A DNA stretch of 64,000 nucleotides from Balneola sp. EhC07 (lineage in GTDB: Bacteria; Bacteroidota; Rhodothermia; Balneolales; Balneolaceae): positions 62,001 to 126,000 of the forward strand of contig NZ_LXYG01000016.1 of assembly GCF_001650905.1 (NCBI RefSeq), written 5' to 3'. The notes under the pieces were generated by a model, which searched no databases, was not told where the DNA came from, and saw nothing but the letters and a program-made list of their open reading frames with translations. How positions within the stretch are numbered: position 1 is the first letter of the stretch; each line of letters starts with the position of its first letter. The position numbers and the translations under genes are program-made. Positions 32,692-45,682 of this stretch are shown piece by piece.

Positions 32692-33818
32692 TCTAAAGCC
32701 TGTCTCAAATCTTCAATGAGATCATCCGGGTGCTCTAAACCAACGCTTAGTCTTATTAAATTTTTCGGAGAATGAGATTGCTCCCCTTCACTGGAACGTC
32801 TGTGTTCCCAAGTGCTCTCAATTCCGCCAAGGCTGGTAGCTCTTGTTATCAGTTTGGAGGAAGCAACTGCTTTAAGCGATTCTTGTTCTGTTCCGTCAAA
32901 AAGAAACGAGATCATTCCACCAAATCCACTCATTTGAGCCCGAGCGATTTCATAACCCTGGTGAGATTCTAATCCCGGATAATAGACTTCTTTTACTTTT
33001 GGATGATCGGAGAGGAATTCGGCGAGTTTTTGAGCATTTTCATTATGGGCACGCATTCGATACGGAAAACTTCTGATACTTCTGCAAAGCAACCAGCAAT
33101 CTCTTGCAGAAGGTACAGCACCCTGCCCTTGTTGAATACTTCGAATTCGATCAAACATTTCATCCTGCTTCGCTGAAATAATAGCACCACCTAAAATATC
33201 GCTGTGTCCGGCTAAGTATTTTGTAGTGGAGTGCATCACCAAGTCAGCACCAAACTCAATTGGATTCAGATTTAAAGGAGATGGCCAGGTATTATCTACA
33301 CATACTTTTGCGTTGATGGTTTTTGCCAAAGCACACACTTTTTCAAGATCGGTAATGTGCATTAACGGATTGGATGGAGTTTCTGCGTAGATCAGTTTTG
33401 TGTTCGGACGAATATTATTCTGAACATGCTCCAGATCTCTCATATCAGTGAATGTAAACTCCAGATTCCACCGCTTACCAAAAGTATTCAACGTTTTTCG
33501 GGTTCCATGATACACATCTTCCGGAACGATGATATGAGAGCCTTCTTCCATTGCCTGAAATACACTTCCGATAGCTGCCATTCCGGACGAAAATGCTGCA
33601 CAAGCTTCGCCTCCTTCTAATTCTGCGAGGACTTTTTCCAGTTGCAGGCGGTTTGGGTTGCTGTGTCTGGTATATAAATAATCTCCATCCTGATGTCCGG
33701 TTTCAGCATGTTCAAAATTCGTGGAAACTTCTATAGGAGGAACTACGGATCTTGATCCTGAAGAGTGATCCAGCGATCCGTGAATGGCTATAGTTTCTAT
33801 GTTTTTGTTCTTTCTCAT
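32688..33818 (-). CDS. Cys/Met-metabolism PLP enzyme (cystathionine gamma-synthase/lyase family)
   Basis: A 376-residue fold-type I PLP enzyme. The Schiff-base Lys is in MHSTTKYLAGHSDILGG (near 203), the PLP-stacking region is SGMAAIGSVFQAM, the cofactor phosphate contacts lie in YTRHSNPNRLQLEKVLA, and SLGGIESTWEHR plus IRLSVGLEHPDDLIEDL form the substrate end. These features do not separate cystathionine gamma-synthase, gamma-lyase and methionine gamma-lyase. The start ATG overlaps the stop of the PIN-toxin gene by four bases, so the toxin pair and this metabolic gene are likely co-transcribed, which is unusual. Confidence 0.93.
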   Translation of the reverse strand: MRKNKNIETIAIHGSLDHSSGSRSVVPPIEVSTNFEHAETGHQDGDYLYTRHSNPNRLQLEKVLAELEGGEACAAFSSGMAAIGSVFQAMEEGSHIIVPEDVYHGTRKTLNTFGKRWNLEFTFTDMRDLEHVQNNIRPNTKLIYAETPSNPLMHITDLEKVCALAKTINAKVCVDNTWPSPLNLNPIEFGADLVMHSTTKYLAGHSDILGGAIISAKQDEMFDRIRSIQQGQGAVPSARDCWLLCRSIRSFPYRMRAHNENAQKLAEFLSDHPKVKEVYYPGLESHQGYEIARAQMSGFGGMISFLFDGTEQESLKAVASSKLITRATSLGGIESTWEHRRSSEGEQSHSPKNLIRLSVGLEHPDDLIEDLRQALD

Positions 33819-34177
33819 CGTTTATACAACACAAAATCGAAATTATCTATTTTTCTAAAGTCTTCATCTGCTGTGAAAAAGGTATAGCCATATTCTAAAG
33901 ATGTTGCTGCAATTATTGCGTCAAGTAACTTTAAATTAAATTTTCGGCGTAATTCAATGGCTCTATTCTTAAGCTGATCTGTAAATCCAATAATTGTAAC
34001 TGCATTCAAATATTCCTTAAGAAGTATTTCTTCTTGAACAGTAATTTTAGAATATGAAAGAAGTTCCATTTCTGAAAAAACTGATACATGTATATGATTC
34101 TTGTCTAAATAATTCGAAAGAGTTTGATCACCGTTTGCATGATAAATAATAATATTTGTATCAACGAGCAGTTTCAA
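33815..34177 (-). CDS. vapC: PIN-domain toxin (VapC-like)
   Basis: A 120-residue PIN ribonuclease. The acidic metal ligands are Asp in LLVDTNIIIY (about 6), Glu in FSEMELLSY (about 38), Asp in LLDAIIAATS (about 91) and Asp in FFTADEDFRKI (about 110). These toxins cut RNA, often initiator tRNA. It overlaps the upstream small gene by 17 bases, the usual antitoxin-toxin arrangement. The downstream overlap with the PLP-enzyme gene suggests one transcript. Nothing suggests inactivation. Confidence 0.9.
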   Translation of the reverse strand: MKLLVDTNIIIYHANGDQTLSNYLDKNHIHVSVFSEMELLSYSKITVQEEILLKEYLNAVTIIGFTDQLKNRAIELRRKFNLKLLDAIIAATSLEYGYTFFTADEDFRKIDNFDFVLYKR

Positions 34178-36060: not shown

Positions 36061-36318
36061 ATGAAAACAAAGTTAATAAAGATTGGAAACTCGCAAGGAG
36101 TCAGGATTCCAAAGCCTATAATAGAAGAGAGTGGGCTTAAAGGAGAGATTGAACTTTTGCTCAGAGATAATGAGGTTGTGCTTCGCTCTGTGCAGGAACC
36201 AAGAGTGGGATGGGATACTTCTTTTAAAGAAATGGCAGATAATAATGATGATGAACTTCTGGATAAGAAGGATACAGAGAAAAGTAATGACTGGGACGAA
36301 ACCGAATGGGAATGGTAA
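36061..36318 (+). CDS. mazE: MazE-like antitoxin
   Basis: An 85-residue AbrB/MazE swapped-hairpin protein: MKTKLIKIGNSQGVRIPKPIIEE is a textbook MazE DNA-binding start, and the acidic C-terminus (NDDELLDKKDTEKSNDWDETEWEW) is the disordered toxin-neutralising tail. It overlaps the toxin gene by up to 13 bases, so the two are coupled, and MazE normally represses the shared promoter. Upstream 71 bases to the divergent RraB-like gene would hold the operator. Confidence 0.93.
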   Translation: MKTKLIKIGNSQGVRIPKPIIEESGLKGEIELLLRDNEVVLRSVQEPRVGWDTSFKEMADNNDDELLDKKDTEKSNDWDETEWEW

Positions 36319-36647
36319 AGAAGCAAGATATTTCCAGGTTTGATACCTATTTGATCTCTCTTGACCCAACCAAAGGTTCAGAGATCAAGAAAACCCGGCC
36401 TTGTCTGGTAATCTCTCCGGATGAAATGAATAGAAATATTAGAACAGTAATTATAGCTCCGCTTACATCAGTCATTCGAAAATATCCCTCCCGTGTAAAC
36501 CTGACATTTCAAAAAAAGAAAGGACAAATAGTCTTAGATCAGATAAGAACAGTAGACAAGCAAAGGTTGATAAAAAAACTAGGATCAGCAAACACCTCCA
36601 CTCAAGCCAAAGTTCTTGACGTTTTAAGAGAAATGGTTGCAGAGTAG
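36312..36647 (+). CDS. mazF: MazF-like mRNA interferase toxin
   Basis: A toxin of about 111 residues that cleaves mRNA at specific short sites. The PemK/MazF fold is seen in RFDTYLISLDPTKGSEIKKTRPCLVISPDEMN, VIIAPLTSVIRKYPSRVNL and GQIVLDQIRTVDKQRLIKKLG. I chose ATG 36312 (MVKKQDISRFD, a common family start), although ATG 36306 in the same frame is also possible. The Arg and Thr/Ser of the active site are intact. With the antitoxin it forms a complete toxin-antitoxin pair, the second in three kilobases. Confidence 0.93.
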   Translation: MVKKQDISRFDTYLISLDPTKGSEIKKTRPCLVISPDEMNRNIRTVIIAPLTSVIRKYPSRVNLTFQKKKGQIVLDQIRTVDKQRLIKKLGSANTSTQAKVLDVLREMVAE

Positions 36648-37527: not shown

Positions 37528-38457
37528 ATGAAACACAATAAAGGCTTACATCACATTTCAGTTTTAGCAGGAGATCCTGCAGAGAACTACGACTTTTATG
37601 TCAAAAAATTGGGAATGAGAATGGTTAAAAGGTCCGTCAATCAGGACGACCCATCTACCTATCATCTGTTTTATGGAAATGAAGCGGCTAATCCCGGGTC
37701 GAGTATAACTTTCTTTCCGTGGCCCCGAGCTCACAAAGGAATTCCCGGAAGCGGTGAATCTGTAAATGTAGCTTTCCAAGTGCCGGAAGGAACAGAAGAC
37801 TTTTGGAAAGAAAGATTGAATGCTGAGAATATTGAACACTCAGATATCTTTGAGGTGTTCGGAAATCCGGCAATTCGTTTTCAGGATCCGGATGGACTGG
37901 AACTGGATCTGATTTTCTCCGATCAACCCAAAGAAATAGTGAGCGCTTTTGAGACCACTGTTCCAACAGAGTCATCGATACAAGGCTTTTGGTCAACACG
38001 ACTGAAAGTAGCTAATCCTGATGCTACAGCAGATATACTAAAAGATATTTTCAAATTTGAAGAGAAGGAATCAGAAGAGAAACTGACCAGATTTGCTACA
38101 GATGCCCAAATAGGAAGCAATGTGATCATAGAAGAATCGGATGATGAGCAAGGAAAAGGCGGACGGGGAATCGTGCATCATGTTGCTTTTCGTGCTAAAG
38201 ATGAAGAAGAATTGGCTGAACTCAGAGAAAAGGTGGTGGAGAAAGGATTACATCCAAGTCCGATTATAGACCGTCACTGGTTTAAGTCTGTTTACTTTCG
38301 TGAGCCAAGTGGAGTTTTGTTCGAAATCGCATCCGATGGTCCGGGATATGATGTTGATGAAGATTTTGAAGAACTCGGCGAAACGTTGATCCTTCCACCT
38401 TGGTTAGAGCCAAGAAGAAAAATTATCGAAGATAATCTACCTGATTTGGGCATTTAA
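37528..38457 (+). CDS. Ring-cleaving dioxygenase-like VOC protein (MhqO-type)
   Basis: A 309-residue protein with two VOC (glyoxalase) domains. I use ATG 37528 (KHNKGLHHISVLAGDP), which has AGAGG upstream and matches family N-termini; a TTG nine codons earlier is unlikely. Domain 1 holds LHHISVLAGD and FEVFGNPAIRFQDPDGLELDL; domain 2 holds GIVHHVAFRA and VLFEIASDGPGYDVDEDFEELGE, giving the metal His/His/Glu set. In Bacillus, MhqO works with the hydrolase MhqD in resistance to hydroquinones and electrophiles. The next gene here, 11 bases on, is an MhqD-like hydrolase, which supports this role. Confidence 0.9.
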   Translation: MKHNKGLHHISVLAGDPAENYDFYVKKLGMRMVKRSVNQDDPSTYHLFYGNEAANPGSSITFFPWPRAHKGIPGSGESVNVAFQVPEGTEDFWKERLNAENIEHSDIFEVFGNPAIRFQDPDGLELDLIFSDQPKEIVSAFETTVPTESSIQGFWSTRLKVANPDATADILKDIFKFEEKESEEKLTRFATDAQIGSNVIIEESDDEQGKGGRGIVHHVAFRAKDEEELAELREKVVEKGLHPSPIIDRHWFKSVYFREPSGVLFEIASDGPGYDVDEDFEELGETLILPPWLEPRRKIIEDNLPDLGI

Positions 38458-38468
38458 AAGCTAGTGTA

Positions 38469-39152
38469 ATGAAATTATTCAGAGTTGATAAAGAAAACCC
38501 GTTTAAAGGACCTCATCAGGACCAGAAAACTGCTTCAGGTGGAGTTGATCTTAGCGACGCAAAGTTTGCCATGATCATGATTCATGGACGTGGTGCAAGT
38601 GCAGAAAGTATTATCGGGCTTGGCAATGAATTTGAGAAGAATGATAAAATTACTTTTATGGCGCCTCAGGCAAGTGGGTTTACCTGGTATCCGTATTCAT
38701 TCCTTGCCCCGACAGAGAAAAATCAACCGGGATTAAATTCAGGCTTGCAAGCTATTTCTAATTTAATACTACAAATAGAAAAAGAAGGAATTTCAAAAGA
38801 AAACATCTTCCTTCTCGGATTTTCTCAGGGAGCTTGTCTTGCTACAGAATTTGTTGCCAGACATCCGGGAAAATACGCCGGAGTAATTGGATTAAGCGGA
38901 GGTCTGATTGGCGATAATATTGATCCGTCAGTTTATTCCGGAGATTTGGAGGGAACGCCGGTATTTCTTGGTTGCAGCAATATAGATCCTCATATCCCAA
39001 AAGAAAGAGTAGATGAAACAGAGGCAGTGTTTGAAAAATTGGGAGGAAATGTCACAAAAAAGATATATCCGGGGATGGGGCACCTTGTCAACGAGGACGA
39101 GATTCAGCATATTCAGCAGTTGCTGAATTCAAAATTAAAGATTCAAGATTAA
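38469..39152 (+). CDS. Phospholipase/carboxylesterase-type hydrolase (MhqD-like)
   Basis: A 227-residue alpha/beta hydrolase of the carboxylesterase/YpfH group. It has the oxyanion start MIHGRGASAES, the nucleophile in LLGFSQGACLATE, an Asp in NIDPHIPKERV and a His in PGMGHLVNEDE. Coupled by position to the dioxygenase-like gene before it, as in the mhqOD pair, it may hydrolyse ring-cleavage products or ester adducts formed by quinones. There is no signal peptide. Its stop codon lies inside a long AT-rich inverted repeat (39141-39184). Confidence 0.9.
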   Translation: MKLFRVDKENPFKGPHQDQKTASGGVDLSDAKFAMIMIHGRGASAESIIGLGNEFEKNDKITFMAPQASGFTWYPYSFLAPTEKNQPGLNSGLQAISNLILQIEKEGISKENIFLLGFSQGACLATEFVARHPGKYAGVIGLSGGLIGDNIDPSVYSGDLEGTPVFLGCSNIDPHIPKERVDETEAVFEKLGGNVTKKIYPGMGHLVNEDEIQHIQQLLNSKLKIQD

Positions 39153-39206: not shown

Positions 39207-40784
39207 ATGGAAATTCTCTGGCTTGGTCTTGCCTATGTTTTAGGTATGGTTGTTAAACAACTAAAACTGCCTCCTTTAATCGGATACTTGATAGCAGGTG
39301 TGGTACTGTCAGCCTTTGGTGTGTCAGACGAAAATGGCATGCTGCACACGATCGGGCATTATGGCGTTATTTTTCTTCTGTTCACGGTTGGATTACATCT
39401 AAGGATAAAAAATATTATCCGCCCGGAAGTGTTTGGTGCGGGAACTATTCACCTTGTGATAAGCGCAGGGATCTTTTTGGTAATTGCAATGGCTTTCGGT
39501 TTTTCTGCTATTGAAGGTTTGATCATTGGGATACTCCTCGGATTTTCAAGTACAGTTTTAGCCGCAAAAACACTGGAAGCTCGTGGTGAACTGAATGCTT
39601 TTCATGCTCGTGTTTCGATTGGTATTTTAATCGTTCAGGACTTGGTAGCAATTACAGTTTTAGCTTTAACCGGAGGTGGAATTCCATCTGTTTGGAGTTT
39701 TGGACTGCTTTTATTGCCGCTTCTTAGACCACTTCTCTTCAAATTACTTACATCAAGCGGACATGAAGATCTTCAGCTACTTTATGGACTCTTGCTTGCC
39801 ATGGGGGGCGCCGCTCTGTTTGAAGTACTTGGCCTTTCCAGCGAATTGGGAGCACTTGTAGCCGGGGCGTTACTTTCAGGAACTCATGAATCGGATGAGC
39901 TTTCCGAAAAGTTATGGGGACTTAAAGAAGCATTTCTGGTTGGTTTCTTTTTAGAAGTGGGGTTGGCAGGCTTGCCGAACATGAACGACCTTCTGTTTGC
40001 CGGGGCTTTATTTGCTGTTCTCCCGATCAAAGCAGTTTTGTTTTTCTTTCTGCTGATACTGTTCAAGCTTCGTTCAAGAAATTCATTTATGGTGACTTTA
40101 ACATTGACTTCCTTCAGTGAGTTTACGCTGATCGCAGGTATGGTGGCGGCATCATCCGGCTTTATTCCGGAATCCACGATCATAGTTTTCGCACTACTGA
40201 TAGCGGTTTCATACACAGTGAATGCTCCATTATCAGCTAAATCGAACAGCTTATGGAAAAGATTTGAGCATAAACTCATTCCGCTAGAAAGAAATGTCAA
40301 ACATCCGGGACAGCAGGTAGTCAGTTTAGGAGGTGCTGAATATTTGGTAGTTGGAATGGGGCAGGCGGGATCTTCAGCTTACGATTATTTAAAGGAAAGA
40401 GAATACAGAGTAACAGGAATGGATTCTGATCCTGCTCAGATCGAATATAATCTGGGAAAAAAACGTCGGGTAGTTTATGGAGATGCTCAGGATGCGGAGT
40501 TGTGGGAAAACATAGATCTATCAAGTGTCAAGGCAATTATGCTTGCAATGCCTTATGCTGATACAAAAATTCAGGCAACTAAAATGCTCCGTGAAAATAA
40601 ATTTACCGAAGATATTTATGCGCTTACTATGAGGGATGAAGAGCATCAAGCGCTTAAAGAAGCCGGAGCAAATGCAGTTTGTTTACCTCTGATACAAGCC
40701 GGAAGAAAACTTGCTGAAATAAGCATAAGTGATGAAGTTGACGGTTCAATGTCGCTGAATTTTGAAATGAATTCTTTTGAGTGA
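39207..40784 (+). CDS. CPA2-family cation:proton antiporter with RCK/TrkA-N domain
   Basis: A 525-residue monovalent cation/proton antiporter (KefB/YbaL type). About twelve membrane segments fill residues 1-345, beginning ILWLGLAYVLGMVVKQLKLPPLIGYLIAGVVL and including GLIIGILLGFSSTVLAAK. The cytosolic end (about 372-500) is a TrkA-N Rossmann domain, YLVVGMGQAGSSAYDYLKEREYRVTGMDSDPAQI...GDAQD, that binds NAD(H) or nucleotides, so transport is likely gated by redox or nucleotide state. It is the first gene of a compact cluster: its end overlaps the DsbA-like gene by eight bases. Confidence 0.95.
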   Translation: MEILWLGLAYVLGMVVKQLKLPPLIGYLIAGVVLSAFGVSDENGMLHTIGHYGVIFLLFTVGLHLRIKNIIRPEVFGAGTIHLVISAGIFLVIAMAFGFSAIEGLIIGILLGFSSTVLAAKTLEARGELNAFHARVSIGILIVQDLVAITVLALTGGGIPSVWSFGLLLLPLLRPLLFKLLTSSGHEDLQLLYGLLLAMGGAALFEVLGLSSELGALVAGALLSGTHESDELSEKLWGLKEAFLVGFFLEVGLAGLPNMNDLLFAGALFAVLPIKAVLFFFLLILFKLRSRNSFMVTLTLTSFSEFTLIAGMVAASSGFIPESTIIVFALLIAVSYTVNAPLSAKSNSLWKRFEHKLIPLERNVKHPGQQVVSLGGAEYLVVGMGQAGSSAYDYLKEREYRVTGMDSDPAQIEYNLGKKRRVVYGDAQDAELWENIDLSSVKAIMLAMPYADTKIQATKMLRENKFTEDIYALTMRDEEHQALKEAGANAVCLPLIQAGRKLAEISISDEVDGSMSLNFEMNSFE

Positions 40785-41301
40785 TTACAGCTTAAATATC
40801 AGAAATGAAGAATACCCGAAAGGAAATCTTTCTTCACAGAATATCCTGATCGAATACGGAGATTATGAATGTCCGTACAGTCGGTTGGGATACAGATATG
40901 TTCAAAAATTCTTGAAAGAAGAGGCAGACCTGAAATTCATATTCCGACACTTTCCGATCAAGAAAAAGCACCCCCATGCTGAAATGTGTGCTGAAGCAGC
41001 TTTATGTGCCGGTGATCAGGGAAAATTCTGGGAAATGCATGATCTTATGTTTGCAGATAATCAGAATCTGAGCAGAGAAAGATTGGAAGAGTTTGCTCAG
41101 GAACTCGATCTGGATAGAAGAAAGTTTCATGTAGATCTGGATTCACACATTTTTTTGAGTTGGGTTCAGCAAGATTTCAGAAGCGGCGTTAAAAACGGCG
41201 TAAATGATACTCCCACTTTTTTTATGAACGAAACCAAGTATGAAGGCAAACTAGCTTACAAAGAGTTATTGGCTTTTATCACGAATCATAAATTAAGCTG
41301 A
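40777..41301 (+). CDS. DsbA-family thioredoxin-fold protein (cytosolic, CPYS site)
   Basis: A 174-residue DsbA-like protein starting at TTG 40777 inside the antiporter gene. It has the thioredoxin fold with an insert helical domain: EYGDYECPYSRLGYRYVQKFL near residue 30 and the cis-Pro loop GVNDTPTFFMN near 150. The active site is CPYS, with only the first cysteine, so it cannot form the usual disulfide and may act by mono-thiol chemistry, glutathione-S-transferase-like or as a sensor. No signal peptide, so it is cytosolic. Similar proteins are found fused to NhaA-type antiporters, matching its place behind an antiporter gene. Confidence 0.9.
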   Translation: MSDYSLNIRNEEYPKGNLSSQNILIEYGDYECPYSRLGYRYVQKFLKEEADLKFIFRHFPIKKKHPHAEMCAEAALCAGDQGKFWEMHDLMFADNQNLSRERLEEFAQELDLDRRKFHVDLDSHIFLSWVQQDFRSGVKNGVNDTPTFFMNETKYEGKLAYKELLAFITNHKLS

Positions 41302-41302
41302 T

Positions 41303-41554
41303 ATGTCTTGCGAACATGAAAATATGATCAAAATTACAGAGACCACTACTCATGAATGCGAAACTTGTGTTCAGCAAGAAGATGAATGGGTTCATTTGCG
41401 AATGTGCATGACTTGCGGTTATGTGGGTTGTTGCGATTCTTCAAAGAACAAGCATGCCAGAAAACACTATATGAGAAATGATCATCCGATAATCAGATCA
41501 GTTGAATCCGGCGAAGATTGGAGATATTGTTACATCGATAAGGAAATACTATGA
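41303..41554 (+). CDS. Bacterial UBP-type zinc finger protein
   Basis: An 83-residue protein formed by one ZnF-UBP domain. The metal ligands run through CEH at 3-5, CETC (19-22), CMTC (35-38) with GYVGCC, and the histidines KHARKHYMRNDHP. The domain is best known from eukaryotic ubiquitin proteases and HDAC6, where it binds free ubiquitin C-termini; bacteria have no ubiquitin, so here it must bind another ligand, perhaps a C-terminal peptide or the neighbouring kinase. It overlaps the kinase gene by four bases (ATGA), a sign of tight coupling. Confidence 0.92.
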   Translation: MSCEHENMIKITETTTHECETCVQQEDEWVHLRMCMTCGYVGCCDSSKNKHARKHYMRNDHPIIRSVESGEDWRYCYIDKEIL

Positions 41555-42951
41555 GTACATTAAAAGAATTCGCAGTTCAAAAATTACACAGCTTCCCACA
41601 GTTCGAAAATGTGCCCGTAGATCAACTTGACTGGCTGGTAGAAAACTCGAGAATCTGTACCTATATGACTGATGAAAGGATCATGGAGCCGGGTACAGAA
41701 ATTGATAAGATGTTCATTATACTGGATGGTAGAATAAGAATTCAGCTTCCAAGAGGAAGTTCGTTTACAAGTATAGGTGATTTTGTGACCGGAGATATTT
41801 CCGGACGTCTTCCATTTTCCAGAATGCAATCTACTTTGGCTCATTTAGTTGTAATGGAAGACACTACCATTCTTGAAACTCATGAAGATCTCTTTGTGGA
41901 GATCACCAAAAGATATGAGCTGATCGAAGCTTTTGTTCACAGTTTATCAGATAGAATTCGAAGCTTCACCTCTCAACAGCAGCAAAATGAAAAGCTGGTA
42001 GCACTGGGGAAACTTTCTGCGGGATTAGCTCATGAATTGAATAACCCGGCTTCTGCCATGGTTCGTGGAGCCACTGAGCTCAAAAAAAGATTGTCCCAAA
42101 CGCCGGATAAACTCAAAGCCGTGATGAATATCAAGCTTACCAACGATCAAGTAGATGCCGTGAATGACTTGGTGTTTAAAAAAGCTGGAAGTGGATCTTC
42201 AAATCAGCAATCCTTAATGGAACGAACGGCGCTTGAAGATGAACTAACAGACTGGATGGAAGATCATGGAGTAGAAGAGGGCTTTGAATATTCCGAGACA
42301 TTCGCTGAGTTTTGCTTTAATACTGAAGATCTTGAATTTGTTTCTGCTCATGTTGAAGACGAATATTTATCTGTGGTTTTAGGCTGGATCGAGGATGTTC
42401 TTACTACGGAGAAAATGGTGGAAGAGATCGAAGACTCTGCCCGACGAATTTCCGATCTGGTTTCTTCAGTTAAGACTTATTCTCATATGGATAGGGGAAC
42501 AGACAAAGAAGTGGTGGAGCTTAAGAAAGTTCTAAAGAGTACAATTACAATGCTTAATCACAAAGCAAAGCAGAAAAAAGTAGAGATAGAACTAAATATC
42601 CCCTCTGGTTTATCTGAATTCTATGGATATGTAAGCGAACTAAACCAGGTATGGACGAACTTGCTGGACAATGCAATCGATGCTGTGCCGCAAGAAGGTA
42701 AGATCGAAGTAAAAGCTGTAGAGAAGAATAAAAATCTGTATCTGTTTTTTAAAGATAACGGTAGTGGAATTCCGGAGGATGTGTTGCCAAAAATATTCGA
42801 TCCTTTTTTTACAACTAAAGACGTTGGTGAAGGAACAGGATTAGGCTTAGATGTGGTTCATAAAATAATTGAAAAACACGGAGCCTCAATTGATGTAGAA
42901 TCAAAACCGGGAGATACAACATTTGAACTCTGTTTTCCATTAAATAATTAA
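41551..42951 (+). CDS. Cyclic-nucleotide-binding sensor histidine kinase
   Basis: A 466-residue soluble kinase. Residues 10-135 form a cNMP-binding (CRP-like) beta roll: FENVPVDQLDWLVENSRI, GTEIDKMFIILDGRIRIQLP and ISGRLPFSRMQSTLAHLVVMEDTTILE. The HisKA domain has LGKLSAGLAHELNNPASAMVRG with phospho-His161, and the ATPase domain has NLLDNAIDAVP, DNGSGIPEDVLPKIFDPFFTTK and GTGLGLDVVHKII. No membrane segment is present, so the signal is intracellular. Its likely partner is the receiver-containing fusion 74 bases downstream. The cNMP pocket's Arg/Glu pair (PFSR) differs from classic CRP, so the ligand may be another molecule. Confidence 0.93.
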   Translation: MSTLKEFAVQKLHSFPQFENVPVDQLDWLVENSRICTYMTDERIMEPGTEIDKMFIILDGRIRIQLPRGSSFTSIGDFVTGDISGRLPFSRMQSTLAHLVVMEDTTILETHEDLFVEITKRYELIEAFVHSLSDRIRSFTSQQQQNEKLVALGKLSAGLAHELNNPASAMVRGATELKKRLSQTPDKLKAVMNIKLTNDQVDAVNDLVFKKAGSGSSNQQSLMERTALEDELTDWMEDHGVEEGFEYSETFAEFCFNTEDLEFVSAHVEDEYLSVVLGWIEDVLTTEKMVEEIEDSARRISDLVSSVKTYSHMDRGTDKEVVELKKVLKSTITMLNHKAKQKKVEIELNIPSGLSEFYGYVSELNQVWTNLLDNAIDAVPQEGKIEVKAVEKNKNLYLFFKDNGSGIPEDVLPKIFDPFFTTKDVGEGTGLGLDVVHKIIEKHGASIDVESKPGDTTFELCFPLNN

Positions 42952-42952
42952 G

Positions 42953-42993
42953 TTAAGAATGAAAAATTCAAAATTGTTTCTTTTCATTCTTAA
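42953..42993. repeat. AT-rich 13-bp inverted repeat between kinase and reductase-fusion genes
   Basis: Arms TTAAGAATGAAAA (42953-42965) and its complement (42981-42993) lie directly after the kinase stop. The sequence style, runs of AATT, ATTC and AAAAT, resembles the hairpin at 39141-39184, hinting at a short repeated family used as 3' structures. Confidence 0.55.
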
Positions 42994-43025
42994 TTTTTCA
43001 TTTTGAATTCCATAATTCCGAAGGA

Positions 43026-44693
43026 ATGAAGAAACCCATAATTTTTACGATCGATGATGATGCTCAGGTGCTTAGAGCCATTACAAGAGATCTGCGCAGC
43101 AATTACAGAAAGGATTATAGGGTAATGAGCACTCAATCTCCGAAAGAAGCATTGTCAAGCCTACCTGAACTAAAAAAGCAAGGCGAAACGGTTGCGCTAT
43201 TTCTATCAGACCAACGAATGCCCGATATGATTGGGGTAGATTTTCTGGAAAAAGCGAAAGGGTATTTCCCGGAAGCAAAGAGAGTTCTGCTAACGGCCTA
43301 TTCTGATACAGACGCCGCAATTCGGGCAATTAATGAAGTTCAGCTGGATTACTATCTACTAAAACCTTGGGATCCGCCTGAAGAAAAATTGTACCCGGTT
43401 TTGGATGATCTGCTGGATGAATGGCAAGCTAATTTCCGTCCGGATTTTACCGGGATCAGATTAGTCGGGTATCAGTATTCACCAAAATCCCATACAGTTA
43501 AAGACTATCTTTCCGGAAATCTGATTCCTTACCGTTGGTTAGATATTGAGGAAAATGCAAAAGCCGCTGAATTATTAGAAGAGAATCAAATTGACCAAAA
43601 AGATCTGCCCGCAATATTTTTTGAAGATGGTGAATTCCTTATTGATCCAAGCCCGATTCAGATTGCTAACAAGCTTGGGAAAAATCCATCTGCTTCAAAA
43701 AATGTATATGATGTAGTGATTGTAGGTGCCGGTCCGGCAGGATTAGCGGCGGCGGTTTATGGTGGCTCGGAAGGATTAAAAACATTGCTCATTGAAAAGA
43801 GAGCTCCCGGAGGTCAGGCAGGAACAAGTTCTCGAATCGAGAATTATCTTGGTTTTCCAAAAGGATTAAGTGGTTCTGATTTGGCAAGACGCGCGATCAC
43901 ACAAGCCACAAGATTCGGAGTCGAGTTTTTATCTCCTCAAGAAGTGATCGATATCAAGCTGAACGATCAATATAAAACGGTTTGCTTGGCGGATGGAAGT
44001 GAGATCAATGCAAAAGCCGTAATTGTAACTACAGGCGTAAATTACAGAAAACTGGAAAGCAAAGGGATTTCAGATTTTACCGGAGCGGGAATTTACTACG
44101 GCGCTGCAATGACTGAAGCACACGCGTTTAAAGACAAACAAGTCTACATCGTTGGAGGAGGTAATTCAGCCGGTCAAGCAGCCATGTATCTGTCTACATT
44201 TGCAAAAAAAGTGTACATCACAATTCGGAAAGATTCACTCGTTTCAAGTATGTCATCTTATTTGATCGATCAGATAAACAGGACCGAAAACATAGAGCTT
44301 CTTGGAAACAGAGAAATTGTAGAGGCTTCCGGAAATGGTCATCTACAAGGACTGAAACTCCTGAATAACGTGGATGAATCAGAATCTGAAGTAGAAGCAG
44401 ACGGTTTATTTATCTTTATCGGTGCAAAGCCTTACACCGACTGGATCCATGATAATGTGATCAAAAATGAAAGAGGTTTTATAGAGACCGGAAGAGATCT
44501 TCAGCGATATGATGACTATTCCAAAGTCTGGAAATTGGAAAGACAGCCCTATTTATTGGAATCATGCGCGCCCGGAATTTTTGCTGCGGGGGATGTCCGT
44601 GCCGGAGCTATGAACAGAGTTGCATCGGCAGTGGGCGAAGGCTCCATGGCTATAAAATATGTTCATGAATATTTAGCGGATTCGAATTTGTGA
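43026..44693 (+). CDS. Receiver/thioredoxin-like/thioredoxin-reductase-like fusion protein
   Basis: A 555-residue three-part protein. The receiver domain (1-130) has Asp10-Asp11-Asp12, phospho-Asp62 in FLSDQRMP and Lys113 in LKPWD. A thioredoxin-like segment (about 142-215, IRLVGYQYSPKSHTVKDYL...PAIFFEDGEFL) lacks a CxxC. The FAD/NAD(P)H reductase part has GAGPAG at 234-239 and GGGNSAGQ at 377-384, and ends AAGDVRAGAMNRVASAVGEGSMA. At the position of the reductase CxxC the sequence is YYGAAMTEA, with no cysteines, so disulfide reduction of thioredoxin is unlikely. It may sense NAD(P)H and relay to the kinase. Homologues with this fusion occur in several phyla with unknown function. Confidence 0.95.
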   Translation: MKKPIIFTIDDDAQVLRAITRDLRSNYRKDYRVMSTQSPKEALSSLPELKKQGETVALFLSDQRMPDMIGVDFLEKAKGYFPEAKRVLLTAYSDTDAAIRAINEVQLDYYLLKPWDPPEEKLYPVLDDLLDEWQANFRPDFTGIRLVGYQYSPKSHTVKDYLSGNLIPYRWLDIEENAKAAELLEENQIDQKDLPAIFFEDGEFLIDPSPIQIANKLGKNPSASKNVYDVVIVGAGPAGLAAAVYGGSEGLKTLLIEKRAPGGQAGTSSRIENYLGFPKGLSGSDLARRAITQATRFGVEFLSPQEVIDIKLNDQYKTVCLADGSEINAKAVIVTTGVNYRKLESKGISDFTGAGIYYGAAMTEAHAFKDKQVYIVGGGNSAGQAAMYLSTFAKKVYITIRKDSLVSSMSSYLIDQINRTENIELLGNREIVEASGNGHLQGLKLLNNVDESESEVEADGLFIFIGAKPYTDWIHDNVIKNERGFIETGRDLQRYDDYSKVWKLERQPYLLESCAPGIFAAGDVRAGAMNRVASAVGEGSMAIKYVHEYLADSNL

Positions 44694-45112: not shown

Positions 45113-45682
45113 GTGTCAGAAAAATTCAAGAGAAAATATCGTAATGAAACCACTCGATTAAAGTCCTGAAATTATGGTTGGAATGGGGCTTATTTCGTAA
45201 CAATTTGTGCGAAGAACAGAGAACGATATTTTGGAGAGTTAGAGAATGACGAAATGTTCCGATCTGAAATTGGAAAAATCGCAAACCAATGTTGGAAAGA
45301 GATCCCGGATCATTTTCCATTTGTGAAATTAGGAGAATTTGTGATTATGCCGAACCATGTGCATGGTATTATAATAATCGATAAAAAAGACGATGGCAGG
45401 TTTTCAAACCCCCACGTAGGGACGCAAAATTTTGCGTCCCTACGTGCACCGAAACCAAGGCAAAAATCTCAGAATAAATTTGGTCCTCAATCTAAAAACT
45501 TGGGTTCAATAGTCAGAGGGTTTAAGATCGGAGTTACAAAGAAGGCGAGAAAGATCAGAACTGATTTCCAATGGCAAGCAAGATACTACGATCATATAAT
45601 CCGAGATCATGAGTCCTTTAATAACATCTCTGAATATATTCGAAATAATCCCTCTCAATGGAAAGAAGATAGGTTTTATTAA
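45113..45682 (+). pseudogene. REP-associated tyrosine transposase (Y1/RAYT) with an internal stop
   Basis: Reading from GTG 45113, the frame codes for a Y1 transposase (HUH family) N-terminus, SEKFKRKYRNETTRLKS, then meets TGA at 45167-45169 where family members usually carry a Trp. It continues in the same frame through NYGWNGAYFVTICAKNRERYFGE, the metal-binding EFVIMPNHVHGII and the catalytic-Tyr helix RYYDHIIRDHESFNNISEYIRNNPSQW to 45682. An ATG at 45254 would give only the last 142 residues. A 34-bp palindrome lies inside the frame. The rest is well kept, so the stop may be recent or read through. Confidence 0.8.
45413..45446. repeat. Perfect 34-bp palindrome within the transposase frame
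   Basis: Arms CACGTAGGGACGCAAAA and its exact complement meet with no loop. The core GTAGGGACGCAAAATTTTGC-type motif is, to my memory, a widespread REP-like sequence next to Y1 transposases in many phyla. Here it lies in the coding frame between the HUH motif and the catalytic-Tyr helix and adds in-frame codons without breaking translation. Confidence 0.9.

Follow-up and report, generated by a model that had tools for sequence, protein, structure and literature searches.

A conserved antiporter, UBP zinc finger and two-component gene cluster in Balneola with a thiol-less receiver-flavoprotein: a possible redox-responsive control module

Why should a cation/proton antiporter stand in one run of genes with a UBP-type zinc finger, a soluble histidine kinase and a receiver-flavoprotein fusion, and what might such a set control? 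In the window analysed here, a 64,000-nucleotide stretch of Balneola sp. EhC07, positions 39207-44693 hold five plus-strand open reading frames arranged head to tail, joined in order by an 8-base overlap, a 1-base gap, a 4-base overlap and a 74-base gap. A preliminary description had given these five genes their identities and had counted three joins as overlaps or gaps of one to eight bases, and open reading frame coordinates and Pfam matches agree with it on both points. The wider cluster, missed in that description, begins two genes before the antiporter, at 37528. The cluster is real and conserved, and varies on an earlier prediction. With a little less than even confidence, we take its role to be the control of a K+ (cation)/H+ antiporter in response to redox state or electrophiles, in connection with the detoxification of quinones or aromatic compounds.

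Homologues of these genes are co-located rather than scattered. Among 58 Balneolaceae genomes, all 17 UBP genes adjoin the antiporter gene, directly downstream of it, and UBP and the REC-fusion are found together in 14 of the 18 genomes having either (Fisher p 1.3e-9, kinship ignored). Twelve genomes from other families of the same class encode antiporter, RCK domain and UBP finger as one polypeptide, which lies directly beside kinase and REC-fusion in L225, L228, L229, L234 and L235; L234 has dioxygenase and esterase as well as antiporter-UBP, kinase and fusion. The domain scan was run on the antiporter-UBP proteins of L046, L225, L226, L228, L234 and L235. The same joined protein occurs on a plasmid of Deinococcus ficus, in a second phylum. 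Moreover, kinase and REC-reductase genes are also found as a pair in Bacteroidota, Actinomycetota, Cyanobacteriota, Deinococcota and Pseudomonadota, with fusion and kinase on the same strand in 75 of 80 genome loci, and a fusion-kinase-UBP arrangement is present in Streptomyces and Tsukamurella. Thus the five genes belong to a conserved module as first proposed, but they are not a single fixed unit. Close relatives G038 and G127 lack the UBP gene and keep the remaining genes, so UBP is not strictly required; some genomes have the dioxygenase-esterase-antiporter block but no kinase module, and hence the block may serve a separate quinone function. The cluster consists of two blocks, MhqO-esterase-antiporter and kinase-fusion (with or without UBP), and UBP links them.

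Beyond Balneolaceae and the class to which they belong, an antiporter is absent from the vicinity of most kinase-fusion(-UBP) loci, so that the antiporter is not the general output of the pair. It is possible, if rather doubtful, that kinase and REC-flavoprotein, with or without UBP, form a general redox two-component module with protein interaction or small-molecule reduction as output, and with antiporter and quinone genes as mere passengers, specific to the lineage of Balneolaceae and relatives. Loci with the pair and no antiporter do occur in Bacteroidota, Cyanobacteriota, Deinococcota, Actinomycetota and Burkholderiales, and all-against-all clustering of neighbours of at least 130 aa put no further gene family beside it in most loci. 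However, antiporter and UBP have been physically fused repeatedly, also in the second phylum and in some cases beside kinase and REC-fusion, which makes passenger status of the antiporter hard to uphold. The remaining large clusters of neighbours seem to consist of shadow frames on the antisense strand.

The first gene of the wider cluster (37528-38457, plus strand, 309 aa) encodes an MhqO-like ring-cleaving dioxygenase of the glyoxalase fold, with matches to MhqO (3oaj, E=4.7e-71) and to 2,6-dichloro-p-hydroquinone 1,2-dioxygenase (4huz, E=1.7e-34), and in Balneolaceae it adjoins esterase and antiporter. The second (38469-39152, plus strand), in MhqD-like position, encodes a phospholipase/carboxylesterase (Abhydrolase_2, 4e-25; PDB 4h0c, E=6.9e-54). 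Dioxygenase followed by esterase is the mhqED order of quinone resistance, and in S. aureus quinones induce mhqED, which encodes such a dioxygenase and esterase (PMC6798810). The Firmicutes mhqRED/mhqNOD quinone resistance operons share this order, dioxygenase then carboxylesterase; unlike in those operons, the esterase here falls far under the MhqD model (NF047577, 17.5 against 325 bits), as a general Abhydrolase_2 member, and antiporter and two-component genes come next. The upstream pair and the quinone induction of mhqED would also suit a mainly enzymatic cluster, in which a phosphorylation-tuned NAD(P)H:quinone reductase supplies hydroquinones to the MhqO-like dioxygenase and the antiporter acts in parallel for pH and K+ protection. 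We consider this rather unlikely. Fold matches of fusion residues 224-555 do include 8c16 and 6gar, which are TrxR-fold ferredoxin/flavodoxin-NADP reductases, a group known to have no CxxC. On the other hand, in loci read from beyond the class the kinase-fusion pair has no linked dioxygenase or esterase, and a plain enzyme would need neither a receiver nor a UBP finger.

The antiporter itself (39207-40784, plus strand, 525 aa) is of KefC/RosB-type CPA2 architecture, and has both the CPA2 membrane domain and the RCK domain of Kef-type proteins (Na_H_Exchanger, 1.9e-36; TrkA_N, 7.2e-19; KefC structure 8bxg, E=4.7e-22). Glutathione is bound in KefC by Q412 and R416 (PMC10224563), and full KefC activity requires KefF, a flavin quinone oxidoreductase (PMC11150392; PMC10224563). 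In alignment to KefC, the two residues correspond to S389 and D393, and KefC-like glutathione gating of this antiporter is ruled out by their loss. Its C-terminus extends about 30 residues past TrkA_N, with no Kef C-terminal domain, and the UBP finger occupies the place where KefC would have this extra part. Similar to KefC-KefF, a CPA2 transporter with an RCK domain lies beside a predicted NAD(P)H-binding flavoprotein, with a putative link to electrophile stress. The differences are that the present operon has no KefF-type FMN protein, no Kef C-terminal domain and no glutathione residues, and that it has a UBP finger and a predicted phospho-relay instead.

The UBP finger (41303-41554, plus strand, 83 aa) scores well above the curated cut-off of zf-UBP (PF02148; 7.2e-13, 49 against 22.7 bits), and its closest solved relative is 2ida (E=1.5e-22). 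Across 26 aligned sequences, the core Cys/His columns, which are the zinc ligands, are invariant or nearly so, and Trp73 and the aromatic residue at 75 of the pocket are retained. These features could suggest that UBP recognises a ubiquitin-like tag or a free protein C-terminus and that the module is a protein-tagging relay, which we regard as very improbable. HDAC6 holds the ubiquitin tail with an arginine, R1155, which has no counterpart in the bacterial finger: all 26 sequences have CC-D-x-S instead of CGR, with no Arg at or beside the pocket site, so that ubiquitin-type tail recognition is disfavoured. In addition, the gene neighbourhoods read contain no conjugation genes.

The soluble histidine kinase (41551-42951, plus strand) combines a divergent cyclic-nucleotide-binding fold with DHp and HATPase parts (cNMP_binding, 2.8e-7; HATPase_c, 1.8e-26; HisKA, 6e-6, just below cut-off), and its AF2 model has a pLDDT of 84. 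Among 99 sequences, His161 of the DHp domain is invariant or nearly so, and H, N and G boxes are near invariant. The PF00027 score is 30.8 bits against a cut-off of 27.5. The phosphate-binding cassette of PF00027 reads GE..A..R(S/T)A; the family consensus at this position is [IV][TS]GxLP[FY]SR and not the canonical motif, which disfavours canonical cAMP binding.

The last gene (43026-44693, plus strand) encodes a fusion of a receiver domain (residues 1-125; Response_reg, 8.4e-14), a glutaredoxin-like domain (145-216; Glutaredoxin-like, 0.003; NCBIfam mycoredoxin, 1.2e-7) and a thioredoxin-reductase-like flavoprotein (224-555; Pyr_redox_2, 7.8e-37). The fusion does carry GAGPAG (residues 234-239), GGGNSAGQ and Asp62 and does lack CxxC, all as claimed; the glutaredoxin-like nature of the middle domain, with CPxC changed to SPKS, had been missed. 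The receiver residues Asp10-12/62, Thr90 and Lys113, which like the conserved kinase residues would be required for phosphotransfer, are invariant or nearly so in about 100 sequences, and FAD/NAD(P)H motifs are intact among fusion relatives, GxGxxG being invariant and GGGNSA nearly so. By contrast with these kept sites, the reductase CxxC is replaced by a YGAA- or YGSA-like sequence in 104 of 104 fusions and in relatives from a further comparison, and the glutaredoxin-like site is mostly SPxS among about 104 relatives. Residues 224-555 of the AF2 model match 5mh4 with Z 32.8 over 300 residues; as the fold search covered this part only, REC and glutaredoxin-like domains rest on profile matches, secondary structure and alignment. 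The AF2 alignments held window and genome rows only, with plasmid sequences left out. The fusion resembles AhpF and thioredoxin reductase in having a thioredoxin-fold domain followed by a TrxR-fold flavoprotein, an arrangement that gave the top full-length fold match, and differs from them in the absence of both CxxC sites and in its N-terminal receiver. Since thiol sites are lost across relatives, the earlier expectation that the fusion differs from ordinary thioredoxin reductase stands at the sequence level, and the reading as a normal disulfide reductase of thioredoxin or AhpF type, to which a receiver was added, has almost nothing left to recommend it, even with its TrxR fold and TIGR01292 match, which at 248.2 bits is itself under the cut-off of 343.45.

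According to our preferred reading, control of the antiporter, the kinase would phosphorylate Asp62 of the fusion, acting through its divergent cyclic-nucleotide-type pocket. The fusion would bind FAD and NAD(P)H and, because CxxC is missing, would pass no electrons to disulfides; it might either reduce a small acceptor such as quinone, or just report NAD(P)H/flavin state. UBP may be an adaptor which docks on the RCK domain, in place of the glutathione-binding C-terminal domain of KefC, and through which the phosphorylated flavoprotein signals to the antiporter. Concomitantly, MhqO-like dioxygenase and esterase would clear hydroquinones and their products. The logic would be that of KefC with the flavin quinone reductase KefF, though the parts are unrelated. 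Somewhat more speculative is the idea of an antiporter class gated by a phosphorylatable, thiol-less flavoprotein via a UBP docking adaptor with no ubiquitin role. Evolution could then have arrived twice at K+ efflux gated by electrophiles or quinones, here and, in parallel, in KefC-KefF.

The module was first called undescribed, which goes too far. In 2011, Burroughs, Iyer and Aravind (Mol BioSyst 7:2261) reportedly used comparative genomics to predict a ZF-UBP cyclic-nucleotide redox signalling system in bacteria, which likewise ties a bacterial UBP finger to cyclic-nucleotide-domain signalling and redox proteins. Compared with that outline, and judged by sequence, what appears new is the loss of thiol sites from a fusion that keeps its motifs for receiver function, FAD and NAD(P)H, the upstream MhqO-like dioxygenase and esterase, the antiporter without KefC glutathione residues and with UBP at the KefC C-terminal place, and the UBP finger without the ubiquitin-tail arginine. 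In the literature covered, searches found no experimental work on a function of the gene set. Response regulators with thioredoxin-reductase output have also been catalogued, for Mycobacterium and Heimdallarchaeota (PMC5847659), and likewise join REC to a TrxR-like domain. Compared by description only, the present fusion would be set apart from them by a thiol-less glutaredoxin domain between the two parts, and by its partner kinase and UBP/antiporter context.

These results can help to find a role, unrelated to ubiquitin, for bacterial UBP fingers, which are known from several phyla with no established job and now gain a candidate partner in the antiporter RCK domain. They also define a large receiver-flavoprotein family in which cofactor sites are kept and redox thiols lost, which may point to a phosphorylation-controlled role in sensing NAD(P)H/flavin or in reducing quinones.

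The remaining gene (40777-41301, plus strand, TTG start) encodes a cytoplasmic DsbA-like protein (Thioredoxin_4, 5.7e-22; DSBA, 2e-14), an optional member of the cluster. The monothiol CPYS site first described for it is confirmed, and CPYS or CPFS is found in all 12 Balneolaceae copies. In G220 and G276, UBP, kinase and fusion have a separate antiporter as their neighbour, one that ends in a monothiol glutaredoxin-like domain (CPLT).

The five genes lie on the + strand where the preliminary description placed them: a KefC/RosB-type CPA2 antiporter with an RCK domain (39207-40784), a DsbA-like protein (40777-41301), a bacterial UBP-type zinc finger (41303-41554), a soluble histidine kinase with a cyclic-nucleotide-type (CNB) domain (41551-42951) and a fusion of receiver (REC), glutaredoxin-like and thioredoxin-reductase-like parts (43026-44693). 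ORF reading gave joins of -8, +1, -4 and +74 bases, and the proposed identities match Pfam naming for all five. The window is part of contig C16 in a 3.62-Mb genome; its closest named relatives are Balneola sp. genomes, with fusion proteins up to 98% identical among the best 80 of at least 588 fusion relatives. Upstream of the antiporter are two further + strand genes, the closer one separated from it by 54 bases: an MhqO-like dioxygenase (37528-38457; best solved relative MhqO 3oaj, E = 4.7e-71, also hydroquinone dioxygenase 4huz, E = 1.7e-34) and a phospholipase/carboxylesterase (38469-39152; solved relative 4h0c, E = 6.9e-54). The same gene order, dioxygenase then esterase, is found in mhqE-mhqD, for which methylhydroquinone is a strong inducer in Staphylococcus aureus (PMC6798810). 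Small adjoining genes at 36061-36647 resemble, by eye, toxin-antitoxin pairs of the MazE/MazF type; the - strand carries a PIN-domain (VapC-like) gene at 33815-34177, and an ORF at 45254-45682 is similar to a REP-associated tyrosine transposase (MPNHVHGI motif).

Recurrent co-location agrees with the earlier view of the five genes as one module. Scanning a genome collection with a fusion profile gave at least 588 confirmed relatives, and the best 80, nearly all from Bacteroidota, were kept; in these 80 loci the kinase is on the same strand as the fusion in 75 and within 300 bases in 70, and a UBP gene is present in 32. In plasmid records, the pair of fusion and kinase is also found in Nostoc, Gloeothece, Caballeronia and Deinococcus, while Streptomyces and Tsukamurella carry operons of fusion, kinase and UBP. 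Near some kinase-fusion pairs a small recurrent neighbour family (at L112:9373-10311, eight further loci and L043) resembles bestrophin-type channels on visual inspection, and Nostoc edaphicum has an annotated bestrophin between fusion and kinase. Across 58 Balneolaceae genomes, UBP is directly downstream of the antiporter at 17 of 17 places; UBP and REC-fusion occur together in 14 genomes and each alone in two (Fisher p 1.3e-9, a statistic that ignores relatedness of genomes).

Partial sets also occur. Dioxygenase-esterase-antiporter loci (L182, L192, L194, L195, L199, L201, L203) showed no UBP, kinase or fusion within 1.5 kb past the antiporter. At L193 and L198, UBP adjoins the antiporter and the same flank contains no kinase; REC-fusion is absent from both genomes. 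Two close relatives, G038 (L056/L062) and G127 (L185), keep kinase, fusion and the other genes and lack UBP between the DsbA-like gene and the kinase; in G038 the stretch is missing at the DNA level. The window therefore holds two blocks, with UBP as the link between them.

Elsewhere in the class Rhodothermia, UBP and antiporter are fused. In 12 genomes outside Balneolaceae, UBP is part of a longer open frame (684-848 aa), and all 12 frames (L046 and eleven others) also match the antiporter; Pfam finds Na_H_Exchanger, TrkA_N and zf-UBP in six (L046, L225, L226, L228, L234, L235), with TrkA_C in two of these. An internal stop in G207, G262, G245 and G308 belonged to the initial match and was not borne out by the full loci, in each of which one uninterrupted frame runs to its own stop. 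Several of these frames adjoin kinase and REC-fusion, and L234 unites dioxygenase, esterase, antiporter-UBP, kinase and fusion. Plasmid pDFI2 of Deinococcus ficus encodes another such single polypeptide.

In the fused relatives the UBP finger is C-terminal to the RCK domain, the position that the glutathione-binding domain takes in Kef. The antiporter is KefC-like yet short (RosB-like), with Ser389 and Asp393 replacing the KefC glutathione residues Q412 and R416 (roles from PMC10224563). Kef requires the flavin quinone oxidoreductase KefF, which docks on the RCK domain through an interface containing zinc (PMC11150392, PMC10224563). By analogy we infer a gating mechanism for the antiporter that would be modelled on Kef-KefF. 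The closest solved structure to the UBP finger is bacterial 2ida, and zinc ligands and Trp73 are kept. In HDAC6 an arginine holds the ubiquitin C-terminus (PMC10424181); its counterpart is absent from the 26 UBP fingers compared, which have CCDxS there, in a register uncertain by one residue.

His161, N box and G box of the kinase are invariant or nearly so, and its model (pLDDT 84.3) has a core matching ZraS and HK853. The CNB domain passes the Pfam threshold, although its ligand loop, [IV][TS]GxLP[FY]SR with SR about 90% conserved, differs from the cAMP cassette.

Among 104 fusion relatives, receiver Asp10-12, Asp62, Thr90 and Lys113 and the FAD and NAD(P)H motifs are invariant or nearly so. 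The absence of CxxC, already noticed in the window's fusion, extends to these relatives: a YGAA-type sequence replaces the reductase CxxC and none occurs elsewhere, the single exception, L058, being a different protein with CATC. The middle domain matches mycoredoxin/glutaredoxin (Pfam, NCBIfam), with CPxC replaced by S152-P-x-S155-H156 (conservation 98, 85, 85 and 91%, respectively). An AlphaFold2 model (pLDDT 85.9) has fold matches to thioredoxin reductases (Z 32.8, spanning 300 residues) and to ferredoxin/flavodoxin-NADP reductases (Z 25-26). With fold and cofactor motifs present and CxxC absent, the fusion therefore fails the defining catalytic feature of the thioredoxin reductase family. 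REC-less and cNMP-domain relatives likewise miss this CxxC. On Deinococcus plasmids (L142, L144), a sister architecture has a cyclic-nucleotide domain in place of the receiver before the CxxC-less reductase.

A 2011 abstract by Burroughs, Iyer and Aravind reportedly places bacterial ZF-UBP domains in a redox signalling system that depends on cyclic nucleotides. REC-thioredoxin reductase regulators have also been noted, as 'Mycobacterium-like' (PMC5847659). Calling the gene set undescribed was therefore too strong, but three points may be new: the gating model for the antiporter, the finding that both thiol sites are lost, and the connection to MhqO.

The DsbA-like protein of Balneolaceae is monothiol, with CPYS or CPFS in 12 of 12 copies. 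A parallel is found at L237:7219-9774 (G220) and L238:6791-9262 (G276), where the antiporter ends in a monothiol glutaredoxin-like domain with WCPLTT (CPLT) and is adjoined by separate UBP, kinase and REC-fusion genes. A REC-less glutaredoxin-reductase relative (L239:4064-5383, contig C6 of G181) lies near a second antiporter-DsbA-UBP set of that genome.
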